Of a stretch of 64,000 nt of DNA, positions 37,641 through 59,446 are shown piece by piece. The notes under the pieces are model-generated. The model was given only the letters and a program-made list of their open reading frames with translations. It was not told the DNA's origin and did no database searches. Position 1 is the stretch's first letter. The number at the start of each line of letters is the position of its first letter. Made by a program: the position numbers and the translations under genes. Source of the DNA: Flavobacterium sp. N2038 (GTDB lineage Bacteria; Bacteroidota; Bacteroidia; Flavobacteriales; Flavobacteriaceae); the NCBI RefSeq assembly GCF_025947185.1, contig NZ_CP110001.1, positions 2,294,001 to 2,358,000 of the forward strand, written 5' to 3'.

Positions 37641-37644
37641 CTTT

Positions 37645-37680: not shown

Positions 37681-37715
37681 TTAAAATTTTTGTATTTATA
37701 GTGATATAAATATTT

Positions 37716-37788
37716 GGTACCTTAGCTCAGATGGTAGAGCAATGGACTGAAAATCCATGTGTCCCTGGTTCGATCCCTGGAGGTACCA
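37716..37788 (+). tRNA. tRNA-Phe (GAA anticodon)
   Basis: 73 nt; acceptor GGTACCT / AGGTACC, anticodon stem ATGGA/TCCAT with loop CTGAAAA, T-arm CCTGG-TTCGATC-CCTGG-type, discriminator A. It lies after the rRNA terminator, so read-through or its own promoter is needed; no clear promoter is seen in the 35-bp gap. Confidence 0.95.
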
Positions 37789-37794
37789 CATCAT

Positions 37795-37880
37795 GCTCGG
37801 ATGGTGAAATTGGTAGACACGCTGGACTTAAAATCCAGTGAACAGCAATGTTCGTGCGGGTTCAAGTCCCGCTCTGAGTA
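37795..37880 (+). tRNA. tRNA-Leu (TAA anticodon)
   Basis: 86 nt with a long variable arm (GAACAGCAATGTTC); acceptor GCTCGGA / TCTGAGT (with G-U pairs), anticodon loop CTTAAAA, T-arm GCGGG-TTCAAGT-CCCGC, discriminator A. 6 bp after tRNA-Phe. Confidence 0.95.
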
Positions 37881-39802: not shown

Positions 39803-39881
39803 TGAAAATGGAGTTGATTTCATAAAAGCCGTAGGTAACTTTATGAAAAATTAGATTAGAATATGAATAAGCTTATATATG

Positions 39882-39911
39882 TAAGCCAGTCCTGTATAAA
39901 GGGCTGGCTTA
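39882..39911 (-). promoter_or_regulatory. intercistronic hairpin between SusD and the phosphatase
   Basis: TAAGCCAGTCC (39882-39892) pairs with GGGCTGGCTTA (39901-39911), 11 bp with one G-U, 8-nt loop. On the minus strand no T-tract follows. It may protect the SusCD mRNA end or set relative expression. The gap also has a weaker ACAGG/CCTGT pair near 39949-39969. Confidence 0.45.
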
Positions 39912-40006
39912 AGGATTATTGTTTAAATATGTTTTATTTTTTACCACAACAGGCTTTATGCAAACCTGTGCAGTAAAAAAATAAACAACAACATGAAACT
40001 ACTTTA

Positions 40007-41542: not shown

Positions 41543-41560
41543 TTTGTTGGTTTTATATTT

Positions 41561-44500
41561 TTAAAATGTTGCGTTTAAACCCGTCATATAAATGCGGGAA
41601 AGTGGATATTTTCCTAAGTCCATTCCGAAATTGGTAAGCCCAACCTCTGGATCCATTCCTGAATATTTGGTAATTGTAAATAGATTTTGACCTGAAATAA
41701 AGAATCTTAGTTTTGCTTTTCCGTTTAACCAGTTTTCTTTAATCGTATAACCAATAGAAAGGTTTTTTAATCGTATGAAAGAGGCATCTTCGATATAAAA
41801 GCTAGAGATTCTTCCAAAGTTATTATTGTTGTCTGTTGCTGAAAGTACCGGGATATCAGTGTTAGTATTTGTAGGTGACCATGCATTTTTTGATTCAGCT
41901 AATAAATTATAACCTGGGAAAGAACCATTTAAACCTGTATGTTTCACAGCATTAAAAACGCTGTTTCCGGCTGCGCCACTAAAAAAGATGTTTAAGTCGA
42001 ATCCTTTGTACTTAAAATTAGAATTTAAACTGTATGTTGTTTTTGGAAAAGGACTTCCCAATACTTCTCTATCATTATTATTAATCACACCATCGCCATT
42101 AAGATCTTTAAATTTGATATCTCCGGCAACGGCATTTGGCTGATAAACCTCTCCTTTGGCATTTACATAGGCTTTTGCTTCTGCGTTACTTTGAAACAAT
42201 CCATCTGTTGCATATCCGTAAAAAGCGCCAACCGGGCTTCCTACCTGATAAATATTAGCCAATGGTAAACTTCTAACACGGCTTAAATTTAGAGGCTCAA
42301 GAGAAGTCAAATCATCTTTAATAGATACAATTTTATTGCTTAAGAATCCGGCGTTTGCTGTTACATCAAATTTAAATTCACCTCGTGTTTTTTGGTATGT
42401 CAAACTAACCTCGATACCTTTATTTTCAACATCTCCGGAGTTTACAATTCTTCCTTGTGGAGTTCCGGAAACACCAGGTAATTGATCACGAACAAGCATG
42501 TCTTTATTTGTTTTCACGTAAGCATCAACAGATCCTAAGAATGAATTATTAAACATAGTGAAATCTAAACCAATGTTTGTCTGTTCAGAGCTTTCCCATT
42601 TTAAATTTGGGTTTGAAAGCTCTCTTTCAGAATAACCATAGTTAATTACAGGAGTTGCGCCTATTAAAGCTGTAGTCTGAGTTAAAGGCACACTAAACTG
42701 GTATGGTCCGAGGTTTCCTAAATTTCCTATTTCTCCCCAGCTTGCACGTAATTTCAAACTGCTTACAATTGGATTAATACCTTTCATAAATCCTTCTTCA
42801 GAGATTAACCATCCTGCAGAAACAGATGGATAAACTTTCCAACGGTTTTCTGATAAAAGCTTTGATGTTCCATCGCGACGTACAATTCCCGAGAATAAAT
42901 ATTTTTGATTGAAGTCGTAATTGATTCTTCCAACATAAGATGAAATAATTTCGTCAGACAAACCTGCTCCAGTTTGCTGTATTAATTTAGCATTCAATAA
43001 ATAACGCTGTGACGGATCTTCATTATCAAATCCTGTTCCTTCCACAGTATAAAAATCTCTTTTAGTTTCCTGATACGTATATCCTGCTAAAGCTTTAAAG
43101 TTGTGCTTTCCAAACGATTTCTCATAAGAAATTGTTTGTTCGCTTAATAAATCACTTATTGTCAAAGATTTTTTAGTCAGACGGTTAAAATCGAATATTT
43201 TCCCGGGCTCTGTAATTTTTACTGTGAAATCTGTTGCATTATCCTGTATTCTTGTATATCCCCAGTTTGATTTTACTTTCAAGCCTTCGATGATTTCCCA
43301 TTCTGCGTAGGGATTAATCAAAATTGTGGAAACAGGATTTCTGTTGTCGAGTCTTTTTAAATAAGCTACCGGATTGATAACGTCTCCGTAAGAACCAATA
43401 TACTTTTCAGGAACACCACCAAATTGTCCAGAACCGTCTTCTCTGTAAATTGTAGCATTGGGCGGATAAAAGATAGCTCCTAAAATTGCTCCTGTGTATG
43501 CACTTGATGTATTAGCACTCTGACCATTTGTTAATGAATAAGATAAATTTTCACCCAATGTAAAGTTTGGTGCCAATTTAAAAGAAGAGTTTGCTCTGAC
43601 AGTATAACGTTCTGAATAGGTATTTAGTAAAATACCTTCGTTTTTTCTATAACTACCAGAAAGAAAGAAATTTGATTTTTCTGTTTTTCCATTTACAGAA
43701 AGAGATAAATCCTGAATTTCTCCTGTATGAAAAATTTCATCCATCCAGTTTGTTTTTGTTGTTCTTGCTGTTGGTTCAAATGCGGGATCAAAAGCTGGAA
43801 TTCTTGGTAGTTTGGCATTATCTCTGGCAATATTCATCGCATCTGCATATTCCGCTGCATTCAAAACATCTAATTTTTTTGCAACATTTTGAAAACCTCC
43901 CTGATAATTTACATTCACATTTATACGGTCTGAAATTCCTTTTTTAGAGGTAATTAAAATTACTCCTCCAGAAGCTCTTGCTCCATAAATTGCCGCTGAA
44001 GCCGCATCTTTTAAGACACTGATCGAACCAATATCATTAGGGTTTATGGTGTTTAGAGAACCGCTGTAGATAATTCCGTCTAAAACAATTAAAGGTGTTT
44101 CAGCATTCAAAGAACCAATACCGCGAATATTAATAGTTGGTGATGCAGTTGGATCACCTCCGTCGCTAATTACCGTAACACCGGCAACGGTTCCCTGCAA
44201 TAATTCGGCAGCATTGTTGTAGGTTCTGCTTGAAGTTTCTTTCATAGAAACCGATCCCACAGCACCTAAAACCTCATTTTTTTTCACACTTCCGTACCCC
44301 ATGACAATCACTTCCTGAAGTTGTTTTACATCAGCAGCCAGTTTTACAGTTATGCTTTGAGAACGGGTCACTTTAACTTCTTGTGTGATATAGCCAACAT
44401 AGGAAAAAATAAGTGTTGCTTCTGAAGCGTTGATTTCCATTTTAAATGTTCCGTCAAAATCTGTAGTAGCTGCAACATCAGAACCTTTATCTTTGATTCC

Positions 44501-44941
44501 AACACCCGGCAATGGCATATTGTCGTCTCCACCAAAAACAGTTCCTGAAACAATAATTTTATTTTGATCTGAAACAGTAACTTTCTGACTTTTTTTGATT
44601 ACAATATTGTTGTTTACAATTTCGTATCGAAGCACAGAACCACAGATTTTATCCAGCGCTTGTTCAAGTGTTACATTGTTTAGTTTTAGACTTAATTTCT
44701 GATTCGTATTTACCTGACTGCTTTCGTACATGAAATGCACATCAGCCTGATTTTCAATTTTATGAAAAATATTTTTTATACTTTCATTTTCAACTTTTAG
44801 AGTTACTCTTTTGCTAATGTCAACATTCCCGGCATTTACTGTTAGTGACGCAAAAAATAAAGCAATAAACAGGAATAGCTTAATTCCGATTGTCTTTATG
44901 ATTTGGCACTTCACGTTAAGCCGTACTTGTTTTTGATTCAT
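41561..44941 (-). CDS. SusC-family TonB-dependent receptor with N-terminal STN signalling domain
   Basis: An 1126-aa outer-membrane transporter. After a signal region (to about residue 38) comes an STN domain (VTLKVENESIKNIFHKIE ... LRYEIVNNNIVIKK, about 46-115), which in FecA-type receptors contacts a FecR anti-sigma in the periplasm. Then follow the CarboxypepD_reg domain (VSGTVFGGDDNMPLPGVGIK), a TonB-box region (LQEVIVMGYGSVKKNEVLGA), the plug (LLQGTVAGVTVISDGGDPTA, VLDGIIYSG) and the barrel. The STN domain plus adjoining fecR and sigma genes mark a substrate-induced, self-regulated system. Confidence 0.96.
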   Translation of the reverse strand: MNQKQVRLNVKCQIIKTIGIKLFLFIALFFASLTVNAGNVDISKRVTLKVENESIKNIFHKIENQADVHFMYESSQVNTNQKLSLKLNNVTLEQALDKICGSVLRYEIVNNNIVIKKSQKVTVSDQNKIIVSGTVFGGDDNMPLPGVGIKDKGSDVAATTDFDGTFKMEINASEATLIFSYVGYITQEVKVTRSQSITVKLAADVKQLQEVIVMGYGSVKKNEVLGAVGSVSMKETSSRTYNNAAELLQGTVAGVTVISDGGDPTASPTINIRGIGSLNAETPLIVLDGIIYSGSLNTINPNDIGSISVLKDAASAAIYGARASGGVILITSKKGISDRINVNVNYQGGFQNVAKKLDVLNAAEYADAMNIARDNAKLPRIPAFDPAFEPTARTTKTNWMDEIFHTGEIQDLSLSVNGKTEKSNFFLSGSYRKNEGILLNTYSERYTVRANSSFKLAPNFTLGENLSYSLTNGQSANTSSAYTGAILGAIFYPPNATIYREDGSGQFGGVPEKYIGSYGDVINPVAYLKRLDNRNPVSTILINPYAEWEIIEGLKVKSNWGYTRIQDNATDFTVKITEPGKIFDFNRLTKKSLTISDLLSEQTISYEKSFGKHNFKALAGYTYQETKRDFYTVEGTGFDNEDPSQRYLLNAKLIQQTGAGLSDEIISSYVGRINYDFNQKYLFSGIVRRDGTSKLLSENRWKVYPSVSAGWLISEEGFMKGINPIVSSLKLRASWGEIGNLGNLGPYQFSVPLTQTTALIGATPVINYGYSERELSNPNLKWESSEQTNIGLDFTMFNNSFLGSVDAYVKTNKDMLVRDQLPGVSGTPQGRIVNSGDVENKGIEVSLTYQKTRGEFKFDVTANAGFLSNKIVSIKDDLTSLEPLNLSRVRSLPLANIYQVGSPVGAFYGYATDGLFQSNAEAKAYVNAKGEVYQPNAVAGDIKFKDLNGDGVINNNDREVLGSPFPKTTYSLNSNFKYKGFDLNIFFSGAAGNSVFNAVKHTGLNGSFPGYNLLAESKNAWSPTNTNTDIPVLSATDNNNNFGRISSFYIEDASFIRLKNLSIGYTIKENWLNGKAKLRFFISGQNLFTITKYSGMDPEVGLTNFGMDLGKYPLSRIYMTGLNATF

Positions 44942-44999
44942 AATTTTTAGTTTTAATTGTTTTGTTTATCGGGTTTCTACGTAGTTTTTTTAAATGCAT

Positions 45000-45920
45000 T
45001 TACTCTATTTTATAGACTCCTGCGTCCATTTTATAAGTAGCATTGATGATATTGCACATCAGTCCAATGGTTTGATCAGCAGTTAGTTCCTTAAAATAGG
45101 CGCTTATCTTAAGGTCGTTTAAATTTTTATTTTTGATTTCGATGGCCACATTGTAATTCCGGTTTATAGTGGCTACAACTTCTGGCAGAGGTGTTTCTTC
45201 AAATACCATAATGTTTTTCCGCCATAGCGAAATAGTGTTTACAGGAACATCTTTAAAGGCCTGAAGTTTGTTGTTTTGGGATTTAAACACCACTTTTTGC
45301 CCTGGGGTTACATATACATTTTCTTCTGTAACGGTTGATTTTACATTCACTTTTCCAGTCAAAACAGAGACTTCCTGTGTTTTTTGGTCAGGGTAAGCCT
45401 GAACATTAAAACTGGTTCCAAGAACTTTGGTATCCATTTTATTGGTATGAATGATAAAAGGATGTTTCTTGTCTTTGGCTACGTCAAAAAAAGCTTCACC
45501 ACTTAGATAAACTTCTCTGGTATCTCCTTTAAATTCTTTAGGATATTTTAGAACACTTCCTGCATTTAGCCAGATTTGCGTTCCATCGCTCAATTTTATT
45601 TCGGCATGTTCACCTAATTTTACGGTAAATTGTTTCGTTTCAACCGATGTTGCTGATTGATAAAAAAACAGGGATAACCCGATTAGGAAAACTAAAGACG
45701 CCGCAACTGTCCAGTTTTTATATTGAAGAGAAATCACATTGTTGGTTTTCTTAATATCTCTTAATTCTTTTTTTAGTTTCGAACGATCGGATTGAATCAT
45801 TTCCATGTTTTCAAAAAAATCATCTGTACGATCGTACCATTTGTTCCACATTTCTTGTCCTTTCGGAGAGTATTTTCCGTCTAAAAAATGTTTTATTTCT
45901 TGTTTTAATTTATCAGGCAT
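45000..45920 (-). CDS. FecR-family anti-sigma factor
   Basis: A 306-aa single-pass inner-membrane regulator. The cytoplasmic N-terminus (residues 1-70) is charged and predicted to hold the ECF sigma; a membrane helix lies near residues 68-86 (NWTVAASLVFLIGLSLFFY); the periplasmic FecR domain has VKLGEHAEIKLSDGTQIWLN, VYLSGEAFFDVAKDKKHPF and VLGTSFNVQAYPD, followed by a C-terminal DUF4974-type domain (FEETPLPEVVATINRNYNV) that contacts the STN domain. It sits between the sigma gene (114 bp upstream) and the SusC gene (58 bp downstream). Confidence 0.95.
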   Translation of the reverse strand: MPDKLKQEIKHFLDGKYSPKGQEMWNKWYDRTDDFFENMEMIQSDRSKLKKELRDIKKTNNVISLQYKNWTVAASLVFLIGLSLFFYQSATSVETKQFTVKLGEHAEIKLSDGTQIWLNAGSVLKYPKEFKGDTREVYLSGEAFFDVAKDKKHPFIIHTNKMDTKVLGTSFNVQAYPDQKTQEVSVLTGKVNVKSTVTEENVYVTPGQKVVFKSQNNKLQAFKDVPVNTISLWRKNIMVFEETPLPEVVATINRNYNVAIEIKNKNLNDLKISAYFKELTADQTIGLMCNIINATYKMDAGVYKIE

Positions 45921-46034
45921 TATAATTTCTTTATGTCTTTAATAGTATGTCTTTGGAATTGTAATTTCGGGTAGGCGCAGGAGGTTACGCTTTTGTTAAG
46001 AAAAAAACTGAACTCTTAATCTGAATTTTATTTT

Positions 46035-46592
46035 TTAATTGAACTCGCCTAAATAAGTGCGCATGAATTTGAGGGCGTACGTAATATGATATTTTACAGT
46101 TTCGATTGAAACATTGAGCTCTTCTGCAATCTCTTTGTTTGTATAGTGTTTTATGCGGCTCAGGATAAAAACTTCTTTTGATTTTTTGGGAAGGAGCATT
46201 GTTGCTTTGTCAACTGCTTTTTGCAATTCTTCATAATAAATAAAATCTTCAGTTGCATTGTGACTGGAATATGAAACTGTATTTTTATCTAAAACTTCTT
46301 GTATATACTGATCGTTGATACTGTGTGATTTAATATAATCCAGAGTCATGTAACGCACTGAAGTGTAGATGTATGCGGCAAAGCTTTTTTGAATTAAAAT
46401 TGTCTTTCGACGCTCCCAGATACTGGTAAAAACTTCCTGAACAATTTCTTCTGAGATGGCTGTCGATTTCATTCTGAGGTATACAAATCGAACAAGGATA
46501 TCGCGATATCTAAAATAAAGTTCATCAAAAGCTTTATCCTTGCCCGATTTTAATAATTCGACAAGATCTTCGTCTGTAAACTTTTTATACAT
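46035..46592 (-). CDS. ECF RNA polymerase sigma-70 factor
   Basis: A 185-aa extracytoplasmic-function sigma factor of the Bacteroidota type that pairs with FecR. Region 2: FDELYFRYRDILVRFVYLRM and SEEIVQEVFTSIWERRKTI, with YIYTSVRYMTLDYIKS for the -10-binding part; region 4: LPKKSKEVFILSRIKHYTNK and EIAEELNVSIETVKYHI, an HTH. It is released by FecR on substrate binding and likely drives the downstream SusC/SusD/phosphatase genes. The start matches the family N-terminus. Confidence 0.96.
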   Translation of the reverse strand: MYKKFTDEDLVELLKSGKDKAFDELYFRYRDILVRFVYLRMKSTAISEEIVQEVFTSIWERRKTILIQKSFAAYIYTSVRYMTLDYIKSHSINDQYIQEVLDKNTVSYSSHNATEDFIYYEELQKAVDKATMLLPKKSKEVFILSRIKHYTNKEIAEELNVSIETVKYHITYALKFMRTYLGEFN

Positions 46593-46971: not shown

Positions 46972-47871
46972 TCATAAAAAGGCATCTGTTTTTATACTTC
47001 TGGCCTTGCATGATTTGTAGTATCTATAAAGAAAATTATAAACAATCATTTCATGCATTCTGTTTTTTGATTTAAATAATCTAACCATTGACATGTGTAT
47101 ATAACTAATCAGGAGGTTGTTTAAATTTATTTGTAATACATTGGAATTATTATAGTCTAAAATTGTGTGTGCCAAAGATTTTATTTGGCTGTTAAAATCC
47201 TCCAGAATGCCAGTTATTTTATAGTATTCAGAATCTTGCTTTTGTCTAAGAGTCATGATTTCTTCTATTTGATACCTGTAATTCCGGTATTTAAAATCGA
47301 TTTGCTTATTTAGATCTTTATTTATGCCGAATTCTTGCCCAAATCCTGTTTTAAGATGTTCAAACAGAATTAATTTATTCTCTAATGAGTATTCGAAATT
47401 ATCTAAAAGATTATCAATATTTATTAAAGCAAAGAGCCATCTTAGTTCATCATCCTCACCTCCAATTATTTCAAGAGCATTCACAATTAATATACTGTCG
47501 TGAAAGAACAGGCTTTCAGAAAGTTCAATAGTGTTTTCTCCATAACGCTCTAATTCTCTTTGATAAGTATCGGTTTGTACTTTCCATATTAAATCTTGAT
47601 TTGCTAAGTCATTAAAATAGGGCAAAAGTTTGCTCATAATGATTTCAAGATTACTTTTATCAATACAATGAAAACGAACCCTTAAATGATGTTTTGGGTC
47701 CGAATACCTAATGAAAAACCATTTGTCAATAATGTTTTCCTGAATCAGATCGTTTGCAACTGCATTAATGATTTCGACTAGAATAAAATCTGCTGTTTTT
47801 GTCCCTGTATATATTTTATAATAGAGCCAATTGTCTCCGGTTATAAAATTTCTTTGTACTATTTTAGTCAT
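46972..47871 (-). CDS. split LanB, C-terminal elimination protein (thiopeptide-type bacteriocin biosynthesis protein)
   Basis: A 299-aa stand-alone glutamate-elimination domain (Lant_dehydr_C, SpaB_C). In LanB enzymes it removes glutamate from glutamylated Ser/Thr to make dehydroalanine or dehydrobutyrine. The start reads RNFITGDNWLYYKIYTG (residues 7-23), the hallmark of this domain. WFFIRYSDPKHHLRVRFH near residue 60 and a helical C-terminus with QINLNNLLISYIHMSMVRLF complete it. Its start overlaps the stop of the N-terminal partner by 8 bp, so translation is probably coupled. In NisB-type enzymes both parts form one chain; here they are two proteins. Confidence 0.9.
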   Translation of the reverse strand: MTKIVQRNFITGDNWLYYKIYTGTKTADFILVEIINAVANDLIQENIIDKWFFIRYSDPKHHLRVRFHCIDKSNLEIIMSKLLPYFNDLANQDLIWKVQTDTYQRELERYGENTIELSESLFFHDSILIVNALEIIGGEDDELRWLFALINIDNLLDNFEYSLENKLILFEHLKTGFGQEFGINKDLNKQIDFKYRNYRYQIEEIMTLRQKQDSEYYKITGILEDFNSQIKSLAHTILDYNNSNVLQINLNNLLISYIHMSMVRLFKSKNRMHEMIVYNFLYRYYKSCKARSIKTDAFL

Positions 47872-50110
47872 TCTTTAATTTTGAACTATTGTAAAATGAT
47901 AGTATAATCTGGTTCGTATGGTGTTGATTATCATCGTGATTTTTTACAATTCCTGATTCATTAAACAAGAATTCTTTAATTTTAAAACTTCGTTTATTTT
48001 TCACTGTGTTTAAAAACATTTTTAGAGATAATAAATTTTCCAGATTCACCAGTAACTGGTTATCAGACTCAATAAACATAACATATTGCGGTATTTTTTT
48101 TTCATTTCTAAATAATCGAAAATCTTGAATCAATTCATAATCCGTTTTATTTTTATCAAAAAACATAGCAATATCTGATTCTTTTAGATTCCAGACAGCC
48201 GGAAATAAAATCAGATTTTCATATTCAATTCGTGGAATAAACTCATAATCATTAGCAAATGGACCTAAATTCATTCCTATGCCTGATCTTTTGTTTTGTG
48301 ACTGCATGTCGGATAAAAAATGGTAAATTGGCAAAGAACCTGATGTGTAATTATGTGAATTTGAAAGGCGGGGAAGAACTTCTCTGTTATGATTTACGGA
48401 TCGTAAATAAATGTCTTTCTGGTTTTTTACAGAAATGTACAAATCGTTGATTTTTAACTGATTTTCAATAGCTAAAGTAGATTTTGATAGATATGGAATT
48501 TCAAATTCTCTAAAATGAGGACGAAGTAAAACATTGCCTACTCTTGAGTCTGGCAAATGATTAATTTCTGCAATAATCTTGGTCTCATTCATCTCTTTCT
48601 CTAAATTAGTTATACTTAGTGTATGCTCTTTTAGAGTTGCATCACCATGGCAAAAACGACCCAAAAGATTTGCTGCACTTGAATTTCCGGCATCGCTTAC
48701 AATTATTTTCTCTTCACCATTAATGATTACAATTTCTATCATGCTTGATATTGTATCCGGCAAATCTGTCCAGTTTTCTTCCAATTCTTCAAAATCCTTA
48801 TCACTAAGTATTATGCTAAAGGTTTTGTTAACAAAAGCTTCCGTAATTTTTTTATGAAAGATTGAATTTGCTTTAGACCATTGAATTTGTTTAAGGGAAT
48901 TTAGATCTTCTTTTGAGTGAAACATTAAATCATCTATTAATGGGTTACTGTCTAAAATTTCCTGATTTTGGATATAACCAATTCCCATTTCTACATCTAA
49001 TGCTTTTGCTAACGAAATCTCTCGATCTTCAAAACGTTCATAAAAGGCATCTTTAAATTTATGTAATGAAGTTTCTTTTGGAGGTGAAGTAAGCTTATTG
49101 AATATAGACATTCCTCGCTTTACCGAATCAACTATAGAATTGCTAAGTAAGTTTGATGTTGTACTTAATGTTACGTCTGTCTGAAATAAAAACTTAATGT
49201 CAAAATCAGTTCCCAGTTCTTTTATAGAGTTACTGATGTCAATATATTTCTTTGGATTGTTTCCTATTCTATTATCCATTTCTGATAAACTAGCTTCTAT
49301 ATAATTTATCAGGTTTATCAATTCATCAGTATTTTTTATTTTTAATAAAACACTTTTAATATGGTCTAAAAATTCAATTCCGGTAGCAGATGGTTCAAGC
49401 TCACTTATTAAGATTTGGCTGGAAATTAATTCATCAACAAAACAATTCACTTCTTCAAAAGAATTTTCATCGTCTACCAATAAATCAATGATATCTTTCA
49501 TTAACATTCCTTTTTCAGTAGCTTTTAGAATTTTTTGAAGATAGACCGAATCATCAACAGCCATCATATTGTGTTGTCTTATACTGTTAATATATTCAAA
49601 TTCAACGTATCGAAGGTGTTTTCCAGACTTATAAATGCTTGTATTTGGGAAAAATAATATTTGTTTTTTTATATTTTCAATTTTTACAAGATCCTGAGAC
49701 AACGCTACGAGGTAATTCATATCTAACCTGGTATGCCTTCTATTATTAGAGATATTATCAAGTCTAATTTTTGTAACACTATCAATTGTACCCATACTGC
49801 ATCCGGCAAATACCCCAAAAGGTGTTGCTCTTGACGACATTCTGGACACATATTTAAGTAAAGAATATTTTAGTCTTTCAATTTTATTGGGATCTTCAAT
49901 TTTATTATTTAGCCATTTTTCTAATTCATTAAATAAAATTGGTGTGGCTAAAAAGACAGCTTCCTTTATTTCAGCTCTGTCAAAGAGTTTTTTAAATTCA
50001 TCGTCAGATATATTTTGCTGTGAAGTTAGTTCTTCAAAGAAGTTAAAAGGTAAAAGCGGTGCTCTGAGAACGAAATTTGGAAATGATTTGTATGTGTTTT
50101 TTTTTGACAT
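47864..50110 (-). CDS. split LanB, N-terminal tRNA-Glu-dependent glutamylation protein (lantibiotic dehydratase)
   Basis: A 748-aa Lant_dehydr_N protein that transfers glutamate from Glu-tRNA to Ser and Thr of the precursor. The beginning FPNFVLRAPLLPFNFFEEL is typical, followed by LKYVSRMSSRATPFGVFAGC (about residue 90), the family's most conserved block, RRHTRLDMNYLVAL, and later LRPHFREFEIPY and NSHNYTSGSLPIYHFLSDMQ. The elimination domain is absent and is encoded next. It needs Glu-tRNA and the leader peptide by family knowledge. It lies 7 bp after LanC's stop codon. It is cytoplasmic or membrane-associated. Confidence 0.92.
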   Translation of the reverse strand: MSKKNTYKSFPNFVLRAPLLPFNFFEELTSQQNISDDEFKKLFDRAEIKEAVFLATPILFNELEKWLNNKIEDPNKIERLKYSLLKYVSRMSSRATPFGVFAGCSMGTIDSVTKIRLDNISNNRRHTRLDMNYLVALSQDLVKIENIKKQILFFPNTSIYKSGKHLRYVEFEYINSIRQHNMMAVDDSVYLQKILKATEKGMLMKDIIDLLVDDENSFEEVNCFVDELISSQILISELEPSATGIEFLDHIKSVLLKIKNTDELINLINYIEASLSEMDNRIGNNPKKYIDISNSIKELGTDFDIKFLFQTDVTLSTTSNLLSNSIVDSVKRGMSIFNKLTSPPKETSLHKFKDAFYERFEDREISLAKALDVEMGIGYIQNQEILDSNPLIDDLMFHSKEDLNSLKQIQWSKANSIFHKKITEAFVNKTFSIILSDKDFEELEENWTDLPDTISSMIEIVIINGEEKIIVSDAGNSSAANLLGRFCHGDATLKEHTLSITNLEKEMNETKIIAEINHLPDSRVGNVLLRPHFREFEIPYLSKSTLAIENQLKINDLYISVKNQKDIYLRSVNHNREVLPRLSNSHNYTSGSLPIYHFLSDMQSQNKRSGIGMNLGPFANDYEFIPRIEYENLILFPAVWNLKESDIAMFFDKNKTDYELIQDFRLFRNEKKIPQYVMFIESDNQLLVNLENLLSLKMFLNTVKNKRSFKIKEFLFNESGIVKNHDDNQHHTNQIILSFYNSSKLKND

Positions 50111-50117
50111 TTTTGCG

Positions 50118-51356
50118 TTAGTTATTATTTACATCTAATAAGAATAAATTATCCCATCCGCAATCATCAAATTCCAGTAAATAGTCTATTAGAACCATAC
50201 CAATTCCAATTACTCCGTCCAACAATCCTATTGAATCAATATAGGTTCCGTTTCCCTGATATTTTTGATAGCCGGCAATACCTTTTTCATTTTCTCCAAA
50301 TTTCAAAACTGCAGAGGTTAATTTCTCATATTCGTGATAAAACTTCTCATCTTTAGAAATTAAATACCATTTTTTATGAATATATGCTATGCTTGAGAGG
50401 CCATGACAAAAGCAGGCATCATAACCATTTGAACTTGAAAACATCTTTTCAAAAGTATTTCTGTGCAAATTTTTGTATGCTAAAGCCAATGCCTTTTCTT
50501 TTAGTGCTTTATCATTTAGAATATACGCCGCTTTATAAAGACCTAAAGAAATGGTCTGATCTCCGTAACACCAGCCAAGAGTGGTGTTATAAACGGCAGT
50601 TATTTTGTTTGTTGCGATACTTGGAAATTGGGATAAATTATTCTCATTGTTGTTTTCAAATTCTAAAACACAAGTAACACTTTTGTTTAATGCTTCCCAG
50701 ACTAAATTATTTTGAGGGATTTGTTCTAAAAATTTTGAAAAAATAATCATATAAGAAATATGTCCATGCGCTAATCCACAATTTGTTACATGAGTATCTT
50801 CGGTTGTATTATAAAGATCTTTGACGCTATTGGTTTTTTCAATATCAGCTAAAACAATAGTAGCAAGTATTTCAAATAGCTGGATAAGTTTCTCTTTAAA
50901 CGGGAAGTTTTTGTCAGTAGTAAGTCTTTCAATTAAATAAAAGGCAGCACCAAATGAACCGTGTAAGAAATCAATGTCCTCAATAATTCTGGTGTGATTA
51001 ATATAATAATCTGCAACTGCCTCATCAATAGTTAAAAGGGCATCTTCAACGTCAATTAACGATTCAGAATTTAAAACACCTTTATTTTTAATAAAGCTAA
51101 ATACATGTGCAACTCCAACTAATCCATTACAATAAGATAATGGTACATCAGTTTCATTGATAATTTCGATAGTTTTCGAAATTATATCATGAATTTTGGT
51201 TAGATATTCCTCCTCATTGGTTAATTTGTATTGCAGATAATAAAACATAGGTAATGATCCTATTCCATTGCATAATGAAATATTAGAATTATGCTCCATA
51301 TTTAAATCAATGCAATCGCTTATCACATTAATTTTATTAATTATTTGATGCTTCAT
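50118..51356 (-). CDS. lanthionine synthetase C family protein (LanC cyclase)
   Basis: A 412-aa zinc-dependent cyclase that adds cysteine thiols to dehydrated residues to form lanthionine or methyllanthionine rings. The alpha/alpha toroid repeats are visible (LCNGIGSLPMFYYLQYKL, LSYCNGLVGVAHVFSFI, LHGSFGAAFYLIERL, GLAHGHISYMIIFSKFL, GLLDGVIGIGMVLIDYL). The zinc ligands Cys263 (GWCYGD), Cys317 and His318 (CFCHG) are all present, and a catalytic-type His (AHGH, about 197-199) is too. It follows the precursor gene after a terminator-like hairpin and precedes lanB. Confidence 0.94.
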   Translation of the reverse strand: MKHQIINKINVISDCIDLNMEHNSNISLCNGIGSLPMFYYLQYKLTNEEEYLTKIHDIISKTIEIINETDVPLSYCNGLVGVAHVFSFIKNKGVLNSESLIDVEDALLTIDEAVADYYINHTRIIEDIDFLHGSFGAAFYLIERLTTDKNFPFKEKLIQLFEILATIVLADIEKTNSVKDLYNTTEDTHVTNCGLAHGHISYMIIFSKFLEQIPQNNLVWEALNKSVTCVLEFENNNENNLSQFPSIATNKITAVYNTTLGWCYGDQTISLGLYKAAYILNDKALKEKALALAYKNLHRNTFEKMFSSSNGYDACFCHGLSSIAYIHKKWYLISKDEKFYHEYEKLTSAVLKFGENEKGIAGYQKYQGNGTYIDSIGLLDGVIGIGMVLIDYLLEFDDCGWDNLFLLDVNNN

Positions 51357-51444
51357 TACTTAAAAAAAATTGAAAACGGAATAAATAATATTGTTTGAAA
51401 AGTAAATTATGGGAGTATATATTTATAAAGCAATGTTCTATTAA

Positions 51445-51480
51445 AAAAAGTAATGAGGTAATAAAACCTCATTACTTTTT
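51445..51480 (-). terminator. hairpin terminator or attenuator between precursor and lanC
   Basis: Perfect 15-bp stem AAAAAGTAATGAGGT / ACCTCATTACTTTTT with a 6-nt loop; on the minus strand it ends in a T-run. It lies 39 bp after the precursor stop codon and 89 bp before the lanC start. Partial read-through would give more precursor than enzyme mRNA, a common RiPP arrangement. Confidence 0.88.
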
Positions 51481-51518
51481 AAATGTCCAGAATTATAAAT
51501 ACTATTTATTAATGCTTA

Positions 51519-51719
51519 CTATCTAGGATTAGGGCATTGGTAACAAGTATTTTGATCATTATTTTTAGTCTCACAACTAATCTGAAAAGTGTTGTCATTA
51601 GATGTACACCAGCCACATGTAAAATTATGCTTTGTACTGTCACCAGTGTAACCACCTCCAACTACTGCTTTTGCCTGAGCGTTTGTCAAACGAGAAATCT
51701 TCATTTTGTTTAATTTCAT
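51519..51719 (-). CDS. class I lanthipeptide precursor with GG-type leader
   Basis: A 66-aa ribosomal precursor. The leader, about residues 1-23, is MKLNKMKISRLTNAQAKAVV followed by GGG; it resembles Bacteroidota GG leaders (KMKISRLT ... VVGGG). The core (about 43 residues, from YTGDSTKHNF) has five Cys at core positions 12, 15, 26, 36 and 39, and ten Ser/Thr. Local patterns TCGWCTS, ISCET and NTCYQC would suit several small thioether rings. Leader removal after the Gly motif is expected by a C39-type peptidase. The gene is 34 bp downstream of the S41 peptidase and followed by a hairpin. The ring pattern and activity cannot be predicted. Confidence 0.9.
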   Translation of the reverse strand: MKLNKMKISRLTNAQAKAVVGGGYTGDSTKHNFTCGWCTSNDNTFQISCETKNNDQNTCYQCPNPR

Positions 51720-51753
51720 TGTTATTATATTTAAGGATTAATATTAATTAGTT

Positions 51754-53430
51754 TTATTTCTGAACAAATTCTAACGCTTTTTCGAGAATTTCGTCTCTTC
51801 CTTCCTGAATACCTTTAATAGTGGGACGCACAACAACGTCAATTTTTATCCCCACTCTTTGGGTTTCGCTTTCGTCCGGATAAAATACACCTAGTCCGGT
51901 AATGACTGATTTGTAGCCTAAAAATTCGTTATGGGAAACATTACCATCTGCCCCGGAAGTCTGGGTGCCTATTGTTGTTACATTATCTCCTGTCTGTAGT
52001 AACATAGTCGCATATTCACTTGAACTTTGAGTACTTTCATTAACTAAAACAACGACTTTACCAGCATAATAGTCATTGCTTTTGGGTGGAATTGTTTCGG
52101 TTGGTTTCCAAATAAACCTTCCTGGATAAGAAAGATCTGGTTTTATCAATTTTGCATACTCTTTTTTAGTTTGAATCAATCTTCTTGCGATCATATAGGG
52201 AGTAAACTTCATGTATTCTCTATAATCAATTATAATTGCTTTTGTTGATTTAAGATCTGACATCATTTTATCAACATCCTTCATTTCTAAATAACTCATA
52301 TCAACATAGCCGATATTATGATCTAAAATTTTATATTTTTCTTTATTTTTAGGGAATGGACCTCTCAAATTCTTTATATCATAGCGTCCGAAATTTTTAA
52401 CAATTTCGTTATCTCCACGTTTAATATTTAGCTTTATAGAGTCCGTAGCTCCAGCCGTTGCAAAAAATCCATTGTGAGTATCCTGCACCTTTTTGTTTGA
52501 TCCTCTATTGTAGATTTTATTTACTGCAATTAATTTACCTACATCTATTCCTCCTGCTTTTTCTATTACATCTCCAATTTTTAAATCATTTAATTTTGCT
52601 AAGGAATCTTTATAAAAACCAGTAATTACCAATTTATCTTCTACCATATTAAAATATGCCGGACTGTACTTTCTTCCAAAGTAATCCTCTATAGGGTCTG
52701 TGTATAAAGTTGCATGCGAGTCGTTAACCTTGACAACTGTTTCCAGCATTGCTAAATGATATTCAGTTTTGTTTTTTGAGTTTTTGAATTTAGGAATCAT
52801 TTTTTGCAGTACATCATCCCAATTTTCATCAGTCTTATATTTATAAGGATAAAAATATTCAACAACATTCCAATATCTAAACAAACTTAACAATCGATGA
52901 TTTTCATCTGGAAATTCAAAATTCTCATATTGTAGCTCATTGATTATTTCTACATTACCAGCGTTTGCTGTAGAGACATAATGATTTTTTCCCTGAAATC
53001 GATTGTCTTCTATTTGCTTTAATTTTTTTGAAAGGTCATTAGAAAATACCTCAGTATTTTGTGTCCAGGAAAGATTGAAATTTTTATCAAAATATTCTTT
53101 TGACTTAGCATCTTTACAGGAACTGCAAGTTTTGATTTCTCCCAGAGAGTCAATCCAGTCTAAGTAGATTTTAGATATAGCCTCGTTAGTTGTTGCTTTT
53201 TCAATTTTAGGAATAATAGTCAATAATTGTTCATCCCAGTTAAAATTTCCTTTGGCAACATTAGGATGATAGTATTTAAGAAATCCCCATACTTTACAAA
53301 GATTAGATAAGTTTTTTGTTTCATTTTTATCGAACACTGAAGATTCGATATCCTGACTATTTACAAAATGCAGATTGCAAATCAAGGTAACTAGTAACAG
53401 GATATATTTTTTTTTAAAAACTTGCTGCAT
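51754..53430 (-). CDS. exported S41-family peptidase with PDZ domain
   Basis: A 558-aa periplasmic or secreted serine peptidase; signal peptide MQQVFKKKYILLLVTLICNL ending near VNSQ. The N-terminal domain (LCKVWGFLKYYHPNVAKGNF, about 44-63, and LFRYWNVVEYFYPYKYKTDE, about 183-202) is typical of a Bacteroidota S41 subgroup. A PDZ-like region follows (VITGFYKDSLAKLNDLKIGD, about 268-287), then the S41 core with VVVLVNESTQSSSEYATMLL, where the nucleophile is among Ser469-471, and GTQTSGADGNVS. No CtpA-like Lys position is certain. It is the first gene of the lanthipeptide operon. A role in leader trimming, maturation or self-protection is inference. Confidence 0.88.
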   Translation of the reverse strand: MQQVFKKKYILLLVTLICNLHFVNSQDIESSVFDKNETKNLSNLCKVWGFLKYYHPNVAKGNFNWDEQLLTIIPKIEKATTNEAISKIYLDWIDSLGEIKTCSSCKDAKSKEYFDKNFNLSWTQNTEVFSNDLSKKLKQIEDNRFQGKNHYVSTANAGNVEIINELQYENFEFPDENHRLLSLFRYWNVVEYFYPYKYKTDENWDDVLQKMIPKFKNSKNKTEYHLAMLETVVKVNDSHATLYTDPIEDYFGRKYSPAYFNMVEDKLVITGFYKDSLAKLNDLKIGDVIEKAGGIDVGKLIAVNKIYNRGSNKKVQDTHNGFFATAGATDSIKLNIKRGDNEIVKNFGRYDIKNLRGPFPKNKEKYKILDHNIGYVDMSYLEMKDVDKMMSDLKSTKAIIIDYREYMKFTPYMIARRLIQTKKEYAKLIKPDLSYPGRFIWKPTETIPPKSNDYYAGKVVVLVNESTQSSSEYATMLLQTGDNVTTIGTQTSGADGNVSHNEFLGYKSVITGLGVFYPDESETQRVGIKIDVVVRPTIKGIQEGRDEILEKALEFVQK

Positions 53431-53823
53431 AGACCTAATTAGTAATTGGAGATGTGAATATTTTTTTCAAAAGTATTTATTGTGTAATCAAAAACTTACC
53501 TATAAATATGCAGATTTTAGTACTAAATTATCCAGATGTAATTGCTAAATTGTTTTTGTACAATGATAAAAAGTGCTAAAAATGCAGATTTACTCTTAAA
53601 AAACAATTGAAATCTATCTTTTGGGTAACATTGTATGCTTTAGAGATAATATAAGATTAATATATAGATGAAAAGCGAAAGATATTTGCCGCTTAATTAA
53701 TTTTTATAGATCGATATACTTGTATGCAACAACTATAAGTAAACTCTCATTGATAATACAAGATTTCTTATCTAAGATTAATTAACTGACTTATATGAAG
53801 ATGAAGTTTTTTTAGTTTCCCGT
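53431..53823. promoter_or_regulatory. divergent intergenic region of the lanthipeptide locus
   Basis: 393 bp without a gene between the minus-strand lan operon and the plus-strand glycosyltransferase genes. On the minus strand 53468-53475 reads TACTTTTG, a good -7 element 38 bp before the S41 ATG; a TTG exists but at only 13-bp spacing. A short direct repeat ATGCAGATTTTAG / ATGCAGATTTACT occurs near 53511 and 53581. No clear plus-strand promoter is seen. Confidence 0.45.
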
Positions 53824-55044
53824 ATGAAAAAAATAAGCTTAATTAATGTTTTTATTGGAGAAATCCCCTGGTTTTTTGCATTCTTCTTAAAGTCATGTGA
53901 GGCTAATCCAACTATAGATTTTTTTATTTTTACGGATCTTGCTATCGATTACCCAGTGGCTCATAATGTTAAAATTATTCCTTTTTCATTGGACGATTTT
54001 AATCAATTGGCAACAAAAAAACTTGGATTTGATATCGATGTAAAAAAGGGCTATAAACTTTGTGATTTTAGACCTGCTTTCGGGATTTTGTTTTCTGATT
54101 ATCTAACGGATTATGATTTTTGGGGTATTACGGATATCGATGTAATTTACGGGAGAATACGTGAATTTATTACCGATGAAGTTTTAGAGGAATATGATGT
54201 TATTTGTGTGCGACATGCTTTTATTACTGCTTGCTGCATGTTCTACAAAAACAATGCATATGTAAATAATTTATTTGCAAAAAGTAAAGATTATAAAATG
54301 ATTTTTACGTCACCTAAAAATTATGCCTTTGATGAAACCAATTTTGAAAATGCGAATAGTTTTCGTGAGATACATGATATTTTTAAAAAGAATTGTGAGA
54401 TAGAAAGCATTCAGCATGTAATTGTAAAAGAAGGAGATCTGGGAAATCTGAAAGCCCATTTCGATTTATTACTAATAGACGGAACTCCTGGAAAATTGAA
54501 ATGGGATAACGGTATCTTTTCCTACGATGGTAAGTTTGAATTTATGCTGTATCATTTATTATATTACAAATGCAATATTTTTGCTAATAACTCCTTAAAA
54601 TGGAGTCAGATACCGGATGTTTTCTACATCGATAAATTTGACTACAGAAAAAGCAATTCAGTTTGTACTCGTTTTAAAGTTTTTTATAATAACAATTTGA
54701 AACCATTTCTCTGGAATTTAGGAAAAAAAGCGGATTGTCTTTTATCCTATATCTTATTTAGGAAAAAAGTTAAAATGATGGAAACGGGAGATTATTATTA
54801 TCATTTAGATAAACAAAAATTAGTCATTGGAAGGCATGATAACGGAGTGAATTTCATGATCATAAAAGGCTCTTCAGTTATTACTATATATGAAATGACT
54901 TTTAATAAAAATTACTTTTTTAATATATACCATGGGCTGATGATAAAAATTGATAGAAATCAATCTGCCCCATATAATAAATTTGATATCGTGTGCAGTA
55001 CAGGTCACAGTAAGGCTTATGTTAAACTTGAGAAAACTGTTTAA
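53824..55044 (+). CDS. DUF6625-like putative glycosyltransferase
   Basis: A 406-aa cytoplasmic protein. Its N-terminal 290 residues look like a GT-A-type nucleotide-sugar fold: INVFIGEIPWFFAFFLKSCE, IDFFIFTD, CDFRPAFGILFSDYLTDYDF, and WGITDIDVIYG, a DxD-like motif near residue 102. It resembles the DUF6625 family. The last 90 residues are a separate region with no assignment. It is the first gene of a plus-strand group divergent from the lanthipeptide operon and is followed by another glycosyltransferase 150 bp later. Whether it modifies the peptide or a cell-surface glycan is not shown by the sequence. Confidence 0.65.
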   Translation: MKKISLINVFIGEIPWFFAFFLKSCEANPTIDFFIFTDLAIDYPVAHNVKIIPFSLDDFNQLATKKLGFDIDVKKGYKLCDFRPAFGILFSDYLTDYDFWGITDIDVIYGRIREFITDEVLEEYDVICVRHAFITACCMFYKNNAYVNNLFAKSKDYKMIFTSPKNYAFDETNFENANSFREIHDIFKKNCEIESIQHVIVKEGDLGNLKAHFDLLLIDGTPGKLKWDNGIFSYDGKFEFMLYHLLYYKCNIFANNSLKWSQIPDVFYIDKFDYRKSNSVCTRFKVFYNNNLKPFLWNLGKKADCLLSYILFRKKVKMMETGDYYYHLDKQKLVIGRHDNGVNFMIIKGSSVITIYEMTFNKNYFFNIYHGLMIKIDRNQSAPYNKFDIVCSTGHSKAYVKLEKTV

Positions 55045-55196
55045 AATTGATTTTTTTATTGTAATCAATTGAAATGTAAAGTAAACGGGTGCACTTATTT
55101 GAGAAACATGTTGCTCTAGAACGTTCGATAAATGATTTATTCATTCATTCATTAAAAATAACTAATACTAATCTTTACCTAAATACAATTCTTTTT

Positions 55197-56138
55197 ATGA
55201 AAATACTCCTTGTAGGACCCGGAATCATGCCAATTCCATCAGACGGCTGGGGTGCTGTTGAAACCCTTATCTGGAACCAAAAAATATATTGTGAGGCACT
55301 TGGTCATAAAGTAGATATTTTAAACAAAAGAGGATTGGTTGCTGCATTATTCGCAAAACCCTGGAGTTATGATATTGTTCATGTTCATTTTGATCCATTG
55401 GCGAAATTTTGGAACACACTTTCGGTTCGTTTAAATTTTAAATTAATTGTTACAAGTCATTATGGCTATGCCGCTTACCCTGAAAAATGGCATTATGGTT
55501 ATCAAAATATTTTTAAGGTTTTAATGAAAAGTGAAAGATTAATGGTTTTAAGCGAAGATATATTAAACGTCTTTAGAAGAAATGGATATAAAGGAAAGAT
55601 TGATGTACTTTCTAATGGAGTTGAAATTCAGCAATTTGTTTTTAATAAATCAGCCTTGTTAAAGAAAGCAATTTGTTTAGGTCGAATGGAAAAAAGAAAA
55701 AGACAAGTAGAAGTAGCCCAAAAAATTTCAGAAAAAAGAAATTTAGTTTGTGATTTTGTCGGACCACTAAACTCCCTTGTGTTTAAAACAGGCAATCAAT
55801 ACGTCAATTATTTAGGGGAATGGGATAGGGCTACAGTTCATAAAAATCTAACAAATTATTCCTGTTTAATTTTATTTAGCGATGGAGAAGCGCACCCCTT
55901 AGTCATAGTAGAAGCTATGGCTGCCGGACTATCTCTTGTCATTTCAAAAGAAGCCTCTGCCAACTTAGATCTGAATCTCCCTTGGATATATTTATGCGAT
56001 ACTGTTGATGAAGTTGCGGAATATGCAGAAAAAGCAATAACCGAAAACGATCTATATCGGGCGCAAATACGAAAGTATGCCGAAGAAAATTTTGATTACG
56101 CAGTTATCGCTCAGAAATACATTCAAATAATTAGTTAG
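55197..56138 (+). CDS. glycosyltransferase family 4 (GT-B)
   Basis: A 313-aa GT-B glycosyltransferase. The N-terminal half has MKILLVGPGIMPIPSDGWGA and VETLIWN, the acceptor-side Rossmann domain of GT4 enzymes; the C-terminal half has KAICLGRMEKRKRQVEVAQK and the nucleotide-sugar site EAHPLVIVEAMAAGLSLVIS with the EX7E motif. It transfers a sugar from an NDP-donor. ATG 55197 is chosen because the GT4 motif starts there; an upstream GTG at 55089 adds 36 unrelated residues. Its neighbours are the DUF6625-like gene and the C39 peptidase ORF. Confidence 0.87.
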   Translation: MKILLVGPGIMPIPSDGWGAVETLIWNQKIYCEALGHKVDILNKRGLVAALFAKPWSYDIVHVHFDPLAKFWNTLSVRLNFKLIVTSHYGYAAYPEKWHYGYQNIFKVLMKSERLMVLSEDILNVFRRNGYKGKIDVLSNGVEIQQFVFNKSALLKKAICLGRMEKRKRQVEVAQKISEKRNLVCDFVGPLNSLVFKTGNQYVNYLGEWDRATVHKNLTNYSCLILFSDGEAHPLVIVEAMAAGLSLVISKEASANLDLNLPWIYLCDTVDEVAEYAEKAITENDLYRAQIRKYAEENFDYAVIAQKYIQIIS

Positions 56139-56217
56139 ATCTATAAAATATTTTCTGTCGAATAATTATGCTGCAATAAAATGCAAAAAACTCATTAAAA
56201 TTTAAGTAATAAAAAAA

Positions 56218-56706
56218 TTGACTTCTTTTCCTTTTTTCAAGCAGGCAGATCATAAAGATTGTGGGCCAACATGTCTCAAAATAATAGCTAAACATTACGG
56301 TAAAACTATCAATATTCAAGAGTTAAGGGATCTTAGCGAGACAACTCGTGACGGAAGTAATTTGCTCTTTTTGAGTGACGCAGCCGAGAAAATTGGTTTT
56401 AGAACTTTAGGAGCAATGCTCGATGCAGAAAATTTAAAAAAAGTTCCGTTGCCTTGTATCTTACATTGGAATAAAAATCATTATGTAGTCCTTTATAAAA
56501 TTAAAAGTGACAGATGTTACATTTCAGATCCCGCCTTTGGCCTAATCGAATACAACATGCCGGACTTTATTAAATTTTGGATCGGGAATAATGCTAATGA
56601 ATTAACTAAGGAAGGTGTAGCATTATTGATTGAAGCTACGCCTAAATTTTTCCAATCCGATTTTGATAAAGAAGATAAGAAAGGGATAGGATTCATTTTA
56701 AATTAA
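56218..56706 (+). CDS. stand-alone C39 peptidase, exporter-derived, non-ATG start
   Basis: 162 residues corresponding to the N-terminal C39 bacteriocin-processing domain of a peptidase-containing ABC transporter (PCAT). The active site is intact: Gln9, Cys15 (KDCGPTCL), His88 (NKNHYVVLYKI) and Asp104 (ISDPAFG). The chain stops after EDKKGIGFIL, exactly where the first transmembrane helix of a PCAT would follow; no ATPase or membrane part exists downstream. The start is problematic: in frame after the upstream stop (56203) the only candidate is TTG 56218, and no ATG is available. It could be a functional stand-alone leader peptidase for the GG leader nearby or a decayed PCAT relic. Confidence 0.75.
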   Translation: MTSFPFFKQADHKDCGPTCLKIIAKHYGKTINIQELRDLSETTRDGSNLLFLSDAAEKIGFRTLGAMLDAENLKKVPLPCILHWNKNHYVVLYKIKSDRCYISDPAFGLIEYNMPDFIKFWIGNNANELTKEGVALLIEATPKFFQSDFDKEDKKGIGFILN

Positions 56707-58696: not shown

Positions 58697-59446
58697 ATGA
58701 ACCAAATACGAACCTTGATTATAGAAGATGAACCGGCGATAAGAAAAGAATTGCAGTGGTTGGTTTCACAAGAAGAATCCTTAAAGTTAGAAGCAGTGGC
58801 CGGTTCTGTAAAAGAGTCATTGCAAATCATAAAAAACACAGAGCTTGATTTAATTTTAATGGATATTCAATTGACAGACGGTACTGCATTTGATATATTG
58901 AATCAGTTAGAACAGCCTTCTTTTCATATTATTTTTATCACAGCTTATAATCATTTTGCCATAAAAGCGATTAAGTATGGTGCACTGGATTATCTTTTAA
59001 AACCAATTGATAGCGATGAATTTGCAGCTGCAATCCAAAAAGTCAGCAAAGTCAAGCAGATTGATTATCTCAGACAAATTAATTTTTTGAAAGAATATAG
59101 TGTTTCAAAATCTATTGATATGAACTCCAGTATTTGTATCACGTCTTTAGACTGTATGCAGATAGTCCGGTTGAATGAAATTGTACATCTTTCAGGTGAA
59201 GGATCTTATACCCAAATTCATCTTGAAAGTAAAAAAATAGTAACTGCTTCTAAACCTTTAAAATACTATGAAGATATCCTGCCTGGCGATTTTTTTATAA
59301 AAACACACCAGTCCTATATTGTCAACAAAAACTTTATTGACAAATACATGAAAACGGGTATAATCATTATGAAGAATTCTTCTGAAATTCCTGTTGCAAC
59401 TCGTAGAAAAGAGTTTGTGATGGATCATTTAAATCCTTTGAGATAA
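58697..59446 (+). CDS. LytTR-family response regulator
   Basis: A 249-aa two-component regulator. The receiver domain (residues 4-120) has the acidic pair ED at 10-11, the phospho-acceptor Asp56 (LILMDIQ), and Lys102 region (LDYLLKPID). The LytTR DNA-binding domain (about 145-245) shows IVHLSGEGSYTQIHLESKKI and FFIKTHQSYIVNKNFIDKY. It controls transcription upon phosphorylation by the histidine kinase encoded next, with which it overlaps by one base (TAATG). Target genes unknown. Confidence 0.95.
   Translation: MNQIRTLIIEDEPAIRKELQWLVSQEESLKLEAVAGSVKESLQIIKNTELDLILMDIQLTDGTAFDILNQLEQPSFHIIFITAYNHFAIKAIKYGALDYLLKPIDSDEFAAAIQKVSKVKQIDYLRQINFLKEYSVSKSIDMNSSICITSLDCMQIVRLNEIVHLSGEGSYTQIHLESKKIVTASKPLKYYEDILPGDFFIKTHQSYIVNKNFIDKYMKTGIIIMKNSSEIPVATRRKEFVMDHLNPLR

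Follow-up and report, generated by a model that had tools for sequence, protein, structure and literature searches.

The locus described here occupies positions 46,972 to 56,706 of a 64,000-nucleotide stretch of the Flavobacterium sp. N2038 genome (contig NZ_CP110001.1, positions 2,294,001 to 2,358,000; hereafter, the window), which is assembled as a single contig of 4.67 Mb. Our analysis indicates that it probably consists of two neighboring units, a pinensin-like lanthipeptide operon on the minus strand and, divergent from it on the plus strand, the remnant of a glycocin-like cassette that holds genes for a DUF6625 protein, for a glycosyltransferase of the GT4 family, and for a short protein with only a C39 peptidase domain. 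What is new, judging from gene neighborhoods and a modeled structure, is that DUF6625, a predicted glycosyltransferase, appears to recur with exporters of the PCAT type (a C39 peptidase domain followed by membrane and ATPase parts), mostly with peptides whose leader ends in two glycines (GG peptides), and often with disulfide enzymes.

An earlier sequence-only reading had listed a 66-residue GG-leader precursor, LanC, a LanB split into two open reading frames (ORFs), an S41 peptidase, and the divergent DUF6625, GT4, and C39 genes, and this gene set proved real in ORF and hidden Markov model (HMM) searches. Its identification of the locus as a class I lanthipeptide locus with a split LanB and no exporter in place was likewise borne out by HMM searches and by tblastn of the window.

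DUF6625 and its association with peptide exporters

DUF6625 (53824..55044, plus strand; HMM E value of 5e-58) is predicted to be a glycosyltransferase of the GT-A fold over residues 1 to 266, followed by a lipocalin-like barrel at the C terminus. The predicted structure shows both the fold and its DxD motif (D104/D106), which is invariant. The best-scoring solved folds include GT6 enzymes acting on glycans, and the GT6 glycosyltransferases BoGT6a and alpha-1,3-galactosyltransferase are among the known systems closest to the DUF6625 protein of the window. SunS was not among the matches listed against solved folds, the C-terminal barrel had no Foldseek match at an E value of ≤0.001, and the DUF6625 profile, run against PDB sequences up to an E value of 10, gave one weak match (6lbu_B, KLLA0E09417p; E value of 0.04). 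The family names DUF6625 and DUF6734 were not met in our literature search, nor, judging by titles and the beginnings of abstracts, did it list any paper dealing with DUF6625 or with glycosylated lanthipeptides of Bacteroidota.

At an E value of ≤1e-30, DUF6625 occurs in 35 of 398 Flavobacterium genomes, including that of N2038, and in 1 of 93 other genomes of the Flavobacteriaceae. The relatives most similar to the DUF6625 protein of the window are P0128 (96%) and P0129 (83%). Outside the window, we collected 48 places, which are not independent of each other (45 from the search of the 398 genomes and three from another search). A PCAT lies within 8 kb of 29 of them, a VKOR-type gene within that distance of 21, and lan genes within it of 5 (four loci); overall, 34 have a PCAT, VKOR, lan, or HlyD gene that close, and 14 have none of these. 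By chance, about 0.4 of the 48 (approximately 1%) would be expected near a PCAT, a figure that assumes a genome of 5.0 Mb and 2.2 PCATs per genome, as counted in 22 genomes mostly picked for DUF6625. The association extends to the peptides. The 48 places fall on 44 stretches (two of them, L116 and L117, being pieces of one contig), all of which were scanned with a simple GG-peptide pattern. Of the 26 stretches where a PCAT is near, 19 gave a match, compared with 3 of the 4 that have VKOR or lan genes only and 2 of the 14 that have neither; selected sets, from which some stretches had been left out, gave 19/25 versus 0/10.

The sequence-only reading had proposed looking for co-occurrence of the gene set in other Flavobacterium genomes. 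DUF6625 does recur beside lan genes in four of them, within the operon in G030, G083, and G389 and divergently in G293, but it is found more often at PCAT/GG-peptide loci that lack lan genes. As G293 and G389 came to us through precursor or DUF6625 searches, these loci do not amount to a rate; in an unselected sample of LanC loci, DUF6625 accompanied lan genes at 2 of 20 other loci. The PCAT follows immediately after DUF6625 in G263 and G389, the latter of which also has a second, non-lan GG peptide. DUF6734 is found inside the lan operon of G030, G083, and G088.

Two further arrangements were observed. One operon recurs at five loci (L053, L119, L120, L121, and L122) and comprises two to four Cys-rich GG peptides of 64 to 71 residues, DUF6625, DUF6734, VKOR, PCAT, and HlyD; it offers a clean candidate system for peptide glycosylation. 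L057 is likewise a simple DUF6625 locus with a GG peptide of its own. At three other loci (L128, L129, and L134), DUF6625 adjoins a far more distant PCAT (29% identity) and an extra pair of small genes, and a GG peptide was recognized in two of the three.

The lanthipeptide operon

ORFs and HMM matches place the genes of the minus-strand operon in the order S41 peptidase, precursor, LanC, LanB-N, and LanB-C, with successive gaps of 34, 162, 7, and -8 bp. LanB-N (47864..50110) carries the glutamylation domain (Lant_dehydr_N; PF04738 E value of 2.7e-130 and PDB entry 9g04 E value of 2.1e-41) and overlaps by 8 bp the separate ORF for the elimination domain, LanB-C (46972..47871; Lant_dehydr_C/TIGR03891, PF14028 E value of 4.4e-71 and NisB 4wd9 E value of 5.8e-10). 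The LanC cyclase (50118..51356; LANC_like E value of 4e-37) has the motifs WCYG, with C263, and CHG, with C317 and H318, three residues that we take to be the zinc ligands. Of the features that define class I lanthipeptide clusters, those readable from sequence are present, namely, both LanB domains, the presumed Cys-Cys-His ligands of LanC, and a precursor composed of a leader and a core with Ser, Thr, and Cys. The S41 peptidase (51754..53430; PF03572 E value of 6.3e-11), the first gene of the operon, has a signal-like N terminus and relatives in other lan and PCAT loci.

The precursor (51519..51719, minus strand) was recognized from its ORF, the alignment of its relatives, and the GG pattern, of which it is the sole match within the 64 kb. 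It has 66 residues, a leader ending in GG or GGG, and a core with 5 Cys, 3 Ser, and 7 Thr residues. Seven relatives were found at an E value of ≤0.01, the best with an E value of 5.6e-34 and 90% identity; P0121 and P0122 are the closest. The resulting eight-row alignment has 25 invariant columns, and because these include all five cysteines as well as S28, T29, T34, T51, and T58, several thioether rings are plausible. G22 and G23 are also invariant at the end of the leader; the exact cut site is nevertheless not fixed, since the window reads GGG-Y, while six of the seven relatives have GG and one (P0121) has GGG. The precursor itself matched neither Pfam nor NCBIfam. One relative, P0127, carries a precomputed PF28317.1 assignment, and part of the family may therefore already have a Pfam entry.

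Between the precursor and LanC lies a terminator-like hairpin (51445..51480, minus strand) with a perfect 15-bp stem followed by a T run. The 101-nucleotide segment around it folds with a ΔG of -23.9 and a z score of -4.6, equaled by 1 of 200 shuffles. The hairpin is probably an attenuator, which would give more precursor than enzyme.

The sequence-only reading had regarded this layout as less common. The lack of a local exporter stood, while the supposed rarity did not. PF14028 had 55 matches in 199 genomes, of which 33 were stand-alone (283 to 328 residues), 17 fused (956 to 1,064 residues), and 5 partial, their glutamylation partners being inspected in fetched loci only. Among 24 LanC loci read in relatives, LanB was split at 8, fused at 14, broken at 1, and not found at 1. 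Split LanB is common in Flavobacterium, though in the minority among the LanC loci read, and we rejected it as an unusual feature. Within a distance of 9 kb, an S41 gene was present at 6 of these loci and a PCAT, the only exporter type sought, at 11, the other 13 having none, so a LanC locus without a local PCAT is not rare. A scan of genome contigs with LanC found no relatives, whereas a scan with the precursor alignment found two loci, in Flagellimonas onchidii and Chryseobacterium flavum. Among named genomes, F. onchidii has the most similar gene set, its locus holding together two precursors, LanC (42% identity), a split LanB, an S41 peptidase, and an intact PCAT, with no match to DUF6625 or GT4 within 10.8 kb.

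A split LanB is known from the pinensins (PMC7268733), and pinensin-type clusters share with the window separate glutamylation and elimination proteins, a LanC nearest to the LanM model, and a GG leader. The best NCBIfam match of the LanC in the window is indeed a LanM model (TIGR03897; E value of 6e-20, below the cutoff of the model), in agreement with the kinship to LanM reported for Bacteroidetes LanCs (PMC7268733). The window differs in having its exporter outside the cluster, in its divergent glycosyltransferase cassette, and in lacking the strict LxLxKx5L leader motif; compared by eye with the motif as given in PMC7268733, the leader reads LNKMKISRL. The likeness is drawn from published descriptions and concerns a precursor that matches no Pfam or NCBIfam family. 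The lan half of the locus is therefore a further member of an already known lanthipeptide type, with an uncharacterized precursor family.

The divergent cassette and the C39 reading frame

The plus-strand group of DUF6625, GT4, and the C39 ORF begins 393 bp from the S41 gene. The GT4 gene (55200..56138, assigned by HMM) most likely starts at ATG 55200, where its relatives start, and at an E value of ≤1e-40, it was found in only 3 of 398 genomes, that of N2038 included. In one of the other two, G156, DUF6625 (78%) and GT4 (79%) are adjacent and follow two genes, one for a 63-residue GG peptide and one that is thioredoxin-like; the 20 kb read there gave no lan or PCAT match. In the other, G057, a GT4 gene (74%) was likewise found without lan genes in the 20 kb read. 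By the refutation criterion of the sequence-only reading, GT4 is therefore not tied to the lan genes.

The three genomes also share a promoter-like block upstream of the cassette (53607..53696, plus strand). In G057, this block lies shortly before GT4, and 13 bp after it come the same 50 bp found immediately ahead of GT4 in the window. The match to G156, where it lies before the GG peptide, is weaker: the global alignment is weak, and the local score is 50, whereas none of 500 dinucleotide shuffles scored above 36. That score was reached by 1 of 3,480 other real pieces, namely, the G057 block. Window positions 53431 to 53850 showed no clear homology, beyond the last bases, to the DNA just before DUF6625 in G156. 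Soon after GT4 in G156 (12460 to 12546 of locus L052), there is a tRNA-like stretch that matches the tRNA at 37795 to 37880 of the window, a possible insertion spot.

These divergent genes look like a separate cassette present in differing sets of parts in three genomes. The simplest reading of the sequences would be one ancestral unit of promoter, GG peptide, thioredoxin, DUF6625, and GT4, followed by losses, of the peptide and the thioredoxin gene in the window and of all but GT4 in G057. A PCAT may have formed the end of this unit, since one directly follows DUF6625 in G263 and G389.

The C39 ORF (56218..56706, plus strand; TTG start) contains the peptidase domain only (Peptidase_C39 E value of 2e-34). 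It aligns over nearly its full length with the fronts of PCATs, and its stop codon falls where a PCAT would enter the membrane part. The "orphan C39" peptidase of the sequence-only reading is, as its alignment suggests, an N-terminal piece of a PCAT exporter that lacks the remainder; that only a C39 domain is encoded here was correct, and its standing as an independent gene is unlikely. We rejected a broken PCAT with its remainder surviving nearby, as tblastn of the 64-kb window with one PCAT and one HlyD protein of the same genome gave no HlyD match and, apart from the C39 part, nothing but two short matches of ATPase type (28 and 41 residues, at 12.3 and 14.2 kb).

The N2038 genome does contain an intact PCAT at 334 kb, where its neighbors are HlyD, an S41 relative, and GG peptides, and the C39 ORF shares about 80% identity with the peptidase domain of this protein. 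A second C39 match lies in a 720-residue frame at 1,087 kb. The 334-kb locus (326000 to 345900 of the contig) encodes HlyD, S41, a VKOR-type protein, and several GG-leader peptides and has no match to LanB or LanC; it is a separate bacteriocin-type locus. Export in trans by this system would be the likeliest route for the lanthipeptide, and paenilan is a precedent for a lanthipeptide matured by proteases whose genes lie elsewhere than in its cluster (PMC8960859).

The surroundings of the locus were also annotated. To the left of the lan operon, an operon at 37985 to 46592 (minus strand) with ECF sigma factor, FecR, SusD, and alkaline phosphatase-type genes and a 1,126-residue ORF that is SusC/TonB-like by eye resembles an ordinary nutrient uptake operon. 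To the right, a LytTR response regulator and a histidine kinase form a pair (58697 to 61368, plus strand); the regulator (58697 to 59446) is a candidate for control of the lan genes and has only distant matches (23% to 30%) to regulators near lan or PCAT genes at five loci (L032, L033, L034, L083, and L051). A 6.6-kb stretch without long ORFs is explained by a complete rRNA operon at 32400 to 37880 (16S, two tRNAs, 23S, 5S, and two tRNAs), and a match to the Flavo-1 small RNA lies at 31626 to 31703 (minus strand; 56.7 bits versus a gathering score of 42). A neighboring DUF6694 gene was rejected as a synteny marker, being present only in N2038 among 40 genomes.

Competing explanations and relation to glycocins

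In the two-unit arrangement that we favor, LanB-N would glutamylate and LanB-C eliminate Ser and Thr residues of the precursor, LanC would close thioether rings using the five conserved cysteines, a C39 domain would cut the leader at the GG site, export would be through a PCAT and HlyD of another locus, most likely the one at 334 kb, and the S41 peptidase would act after export. The divergent cassette, probably driven separately, would descend from the glycocin-like operon outlined above, having lost here its own peptide, its thioredoxin gene, and all of its PCAT except the C39 domain. In this history, we infer the promoter role of the upstream block, the direction in which the loci changed, and the origin of the C39 piece from the cassette. 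The least certain step is that DUF6625 and GT4 glycosylate the lanthipeptide, the sole GG peptide found in the window. That step is favored by the four lan loci with DUF6625 and by the lack of another GG peptide in the window, and disfavored by G156, G057, the separate upstream block, and Flagellimonas, and we regard it as doubtful.

Several observations weigh against this picture. Fourteen of the 48 DUF6625 places lack PCAT, HlyD, VKOR, and lan genes within 8 kb, although four of these are cut by contig ends; three of the 14 (G137, G140, and G181) belong to genomes without any C39 match; and the single DUF6625 gene found in the 93 other genomes of the family has no PCAT or lan match in 15.7 kb. 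No PCAT was found at the cassettes of G156 and G057 in the 20 kb read, and in G057, GT4 stands there without a lan, PCAT, or DUF6625 match. Furthermore, the choice between a loss here and a gain in G156 is based on three genomes.

Were the locus instead one joint cluster, DUF6625 and GT4 would make a glyco-lanthipeptide and the free C39 protein would remove its leader. The lan loci of G030, G083, G389, and G293 speak for this possibility, particularly as the G030 and G293 stretches each hold one pattern GG peptide, which adjoins the lan genes; the predicted GT-A fold with its invariant DxD, the lan precursor as the only GG peptide of the window, and the intact C39 motif residues (C15, H88, and D104) would also fit. 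We nevertheless consider it rather unlikely, because G156 has the DUF6625-GT4 pair and no lan genes in the 20 kb read, GT4 occurs without DUF6625 in G057, the cassette has its own upstream block, the otherwise similar F. onchidii locus has no transferase match, the second GG peptide of G389 could be the target there, and a free cytosolic C39 protein would cut the leader before export. The sequence-only reading had asked whether in relatives the glycosyltransferase and C39 genes stand apart from the lan genes, to which the answer is mixed: GT4 is not tied to lan, the exporter family of the C39 piece occurs with and without lan, and DUF6625 is tied to exported GG peptides generally. The transferases might alternatively alter surface glycans of the producer, either for self-protection or in unrelated capsule work. 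Two DUF6625 regions without PCAT (G140 and G181, the two drawn up) resemble surface-polysaccharide loci in gene layout, and glycan-acting GT6 enzymes are among the best-scoring folds; set against this, 29 of 48 DUF6625 places lie beside a PCAT where about 1% would be expected, and the HMM scan recognized no other glycan gene between 46972 and 58406. Surface-glycan work is improbable as an explanation of the locus. For DUF6625 as a family, the earlier suggestion of an unrelated role in surface glycans is unlikely, a grading that we do not extend to the copy in the window.

Another possibility is that the C39 ORF is no fossil and encodes a leader peptidase that works on its own. Its motif residues are intact, and its differences from the 334-kb copy are mostly silent, with a ratio of nonsynonymous to synonymous divergence (dN/dS) of 0.07 at a dS of 1.69, near saturation. 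This ratio shows long past constraint, not present constraint; the ORF may still work as a free peptidase, another point against our interpretation. Other short C39 proteins of 172 to 175 residues exist on contigs of at least 46 kb (P0001, P0018, and P0063). The short homologs that we read, however, differ in where they end, and most of them extend into the PCAT linker or the first membrane segment, as fragments would. Among 52 C39 matches of at least 50 bits in 22 genomes, a count that leaves out 15 weaker rows, 49 lie in frames of at least 690 residues and two, from one draft genome, in frames of 333 to 339 residues, the 166-residue frame of the window being the only one so short. In a relative-rate comparison with 32 other PCATs, the 334-kb copy was closer to 22, the window copy to 9, and one was equal; we gave this no weight because the two copies may be different paralogs. 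Taken together, we judge a working stand-alone peptidase unlikely and retain the interpretation of a PCAT remnant.

The known systems closest in composition to many DUF6625 loci are the glycocin clusters. Those of sublancin, glycocin F, and enterocin F4-9 combine a GG-leader peptide, a PCAT, thiol-disulfide enzymes, and a glycosyltransferase (PMC12457901), and the number of identified glycocins had reached ten by 2022, in Bacillota (PMC9576775). Many DUF6625 loci hold all four parts. The window has a GG peptide, the lan precursor, and the glycosyltransferase genes DUF6625 and GT4, while a PCAT body and thiol-disulfide genes, present at many other DUF6625 loci, were not found in it using PCAT and VKOR seeds. 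The systems described here differ further from glycocins in their transferase families (DUF6625 and DUF6734) and in their host, Flavobacterium as opposed to Bacillota. We tentatively propose that DUF6625, with DUF6734 at some loci, may act as a peptide glycosyltransferase for PCAT-exported GG-leader peptides in Flavobacterium, including hybrids that would carry both LanB/LanC rings and a glycan, and that the window may represent a decaying or streamlined hybrid.

The lan operon itself is a smaller gain than a function that can be tested for DUF6625 and DUF6734, of which the fold prediction covers DUF6625 only. The series formed by the cassettes of the window, G156, and G057 suggests how such loci shed parts and come to use a shared exporter. 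If our proposal is correct, glycosylated peptide bacteriocins, made by new enzymes, would be known from Bacteroidota as well, and transferases that could be paired with lanthipeptide machinery would become available.

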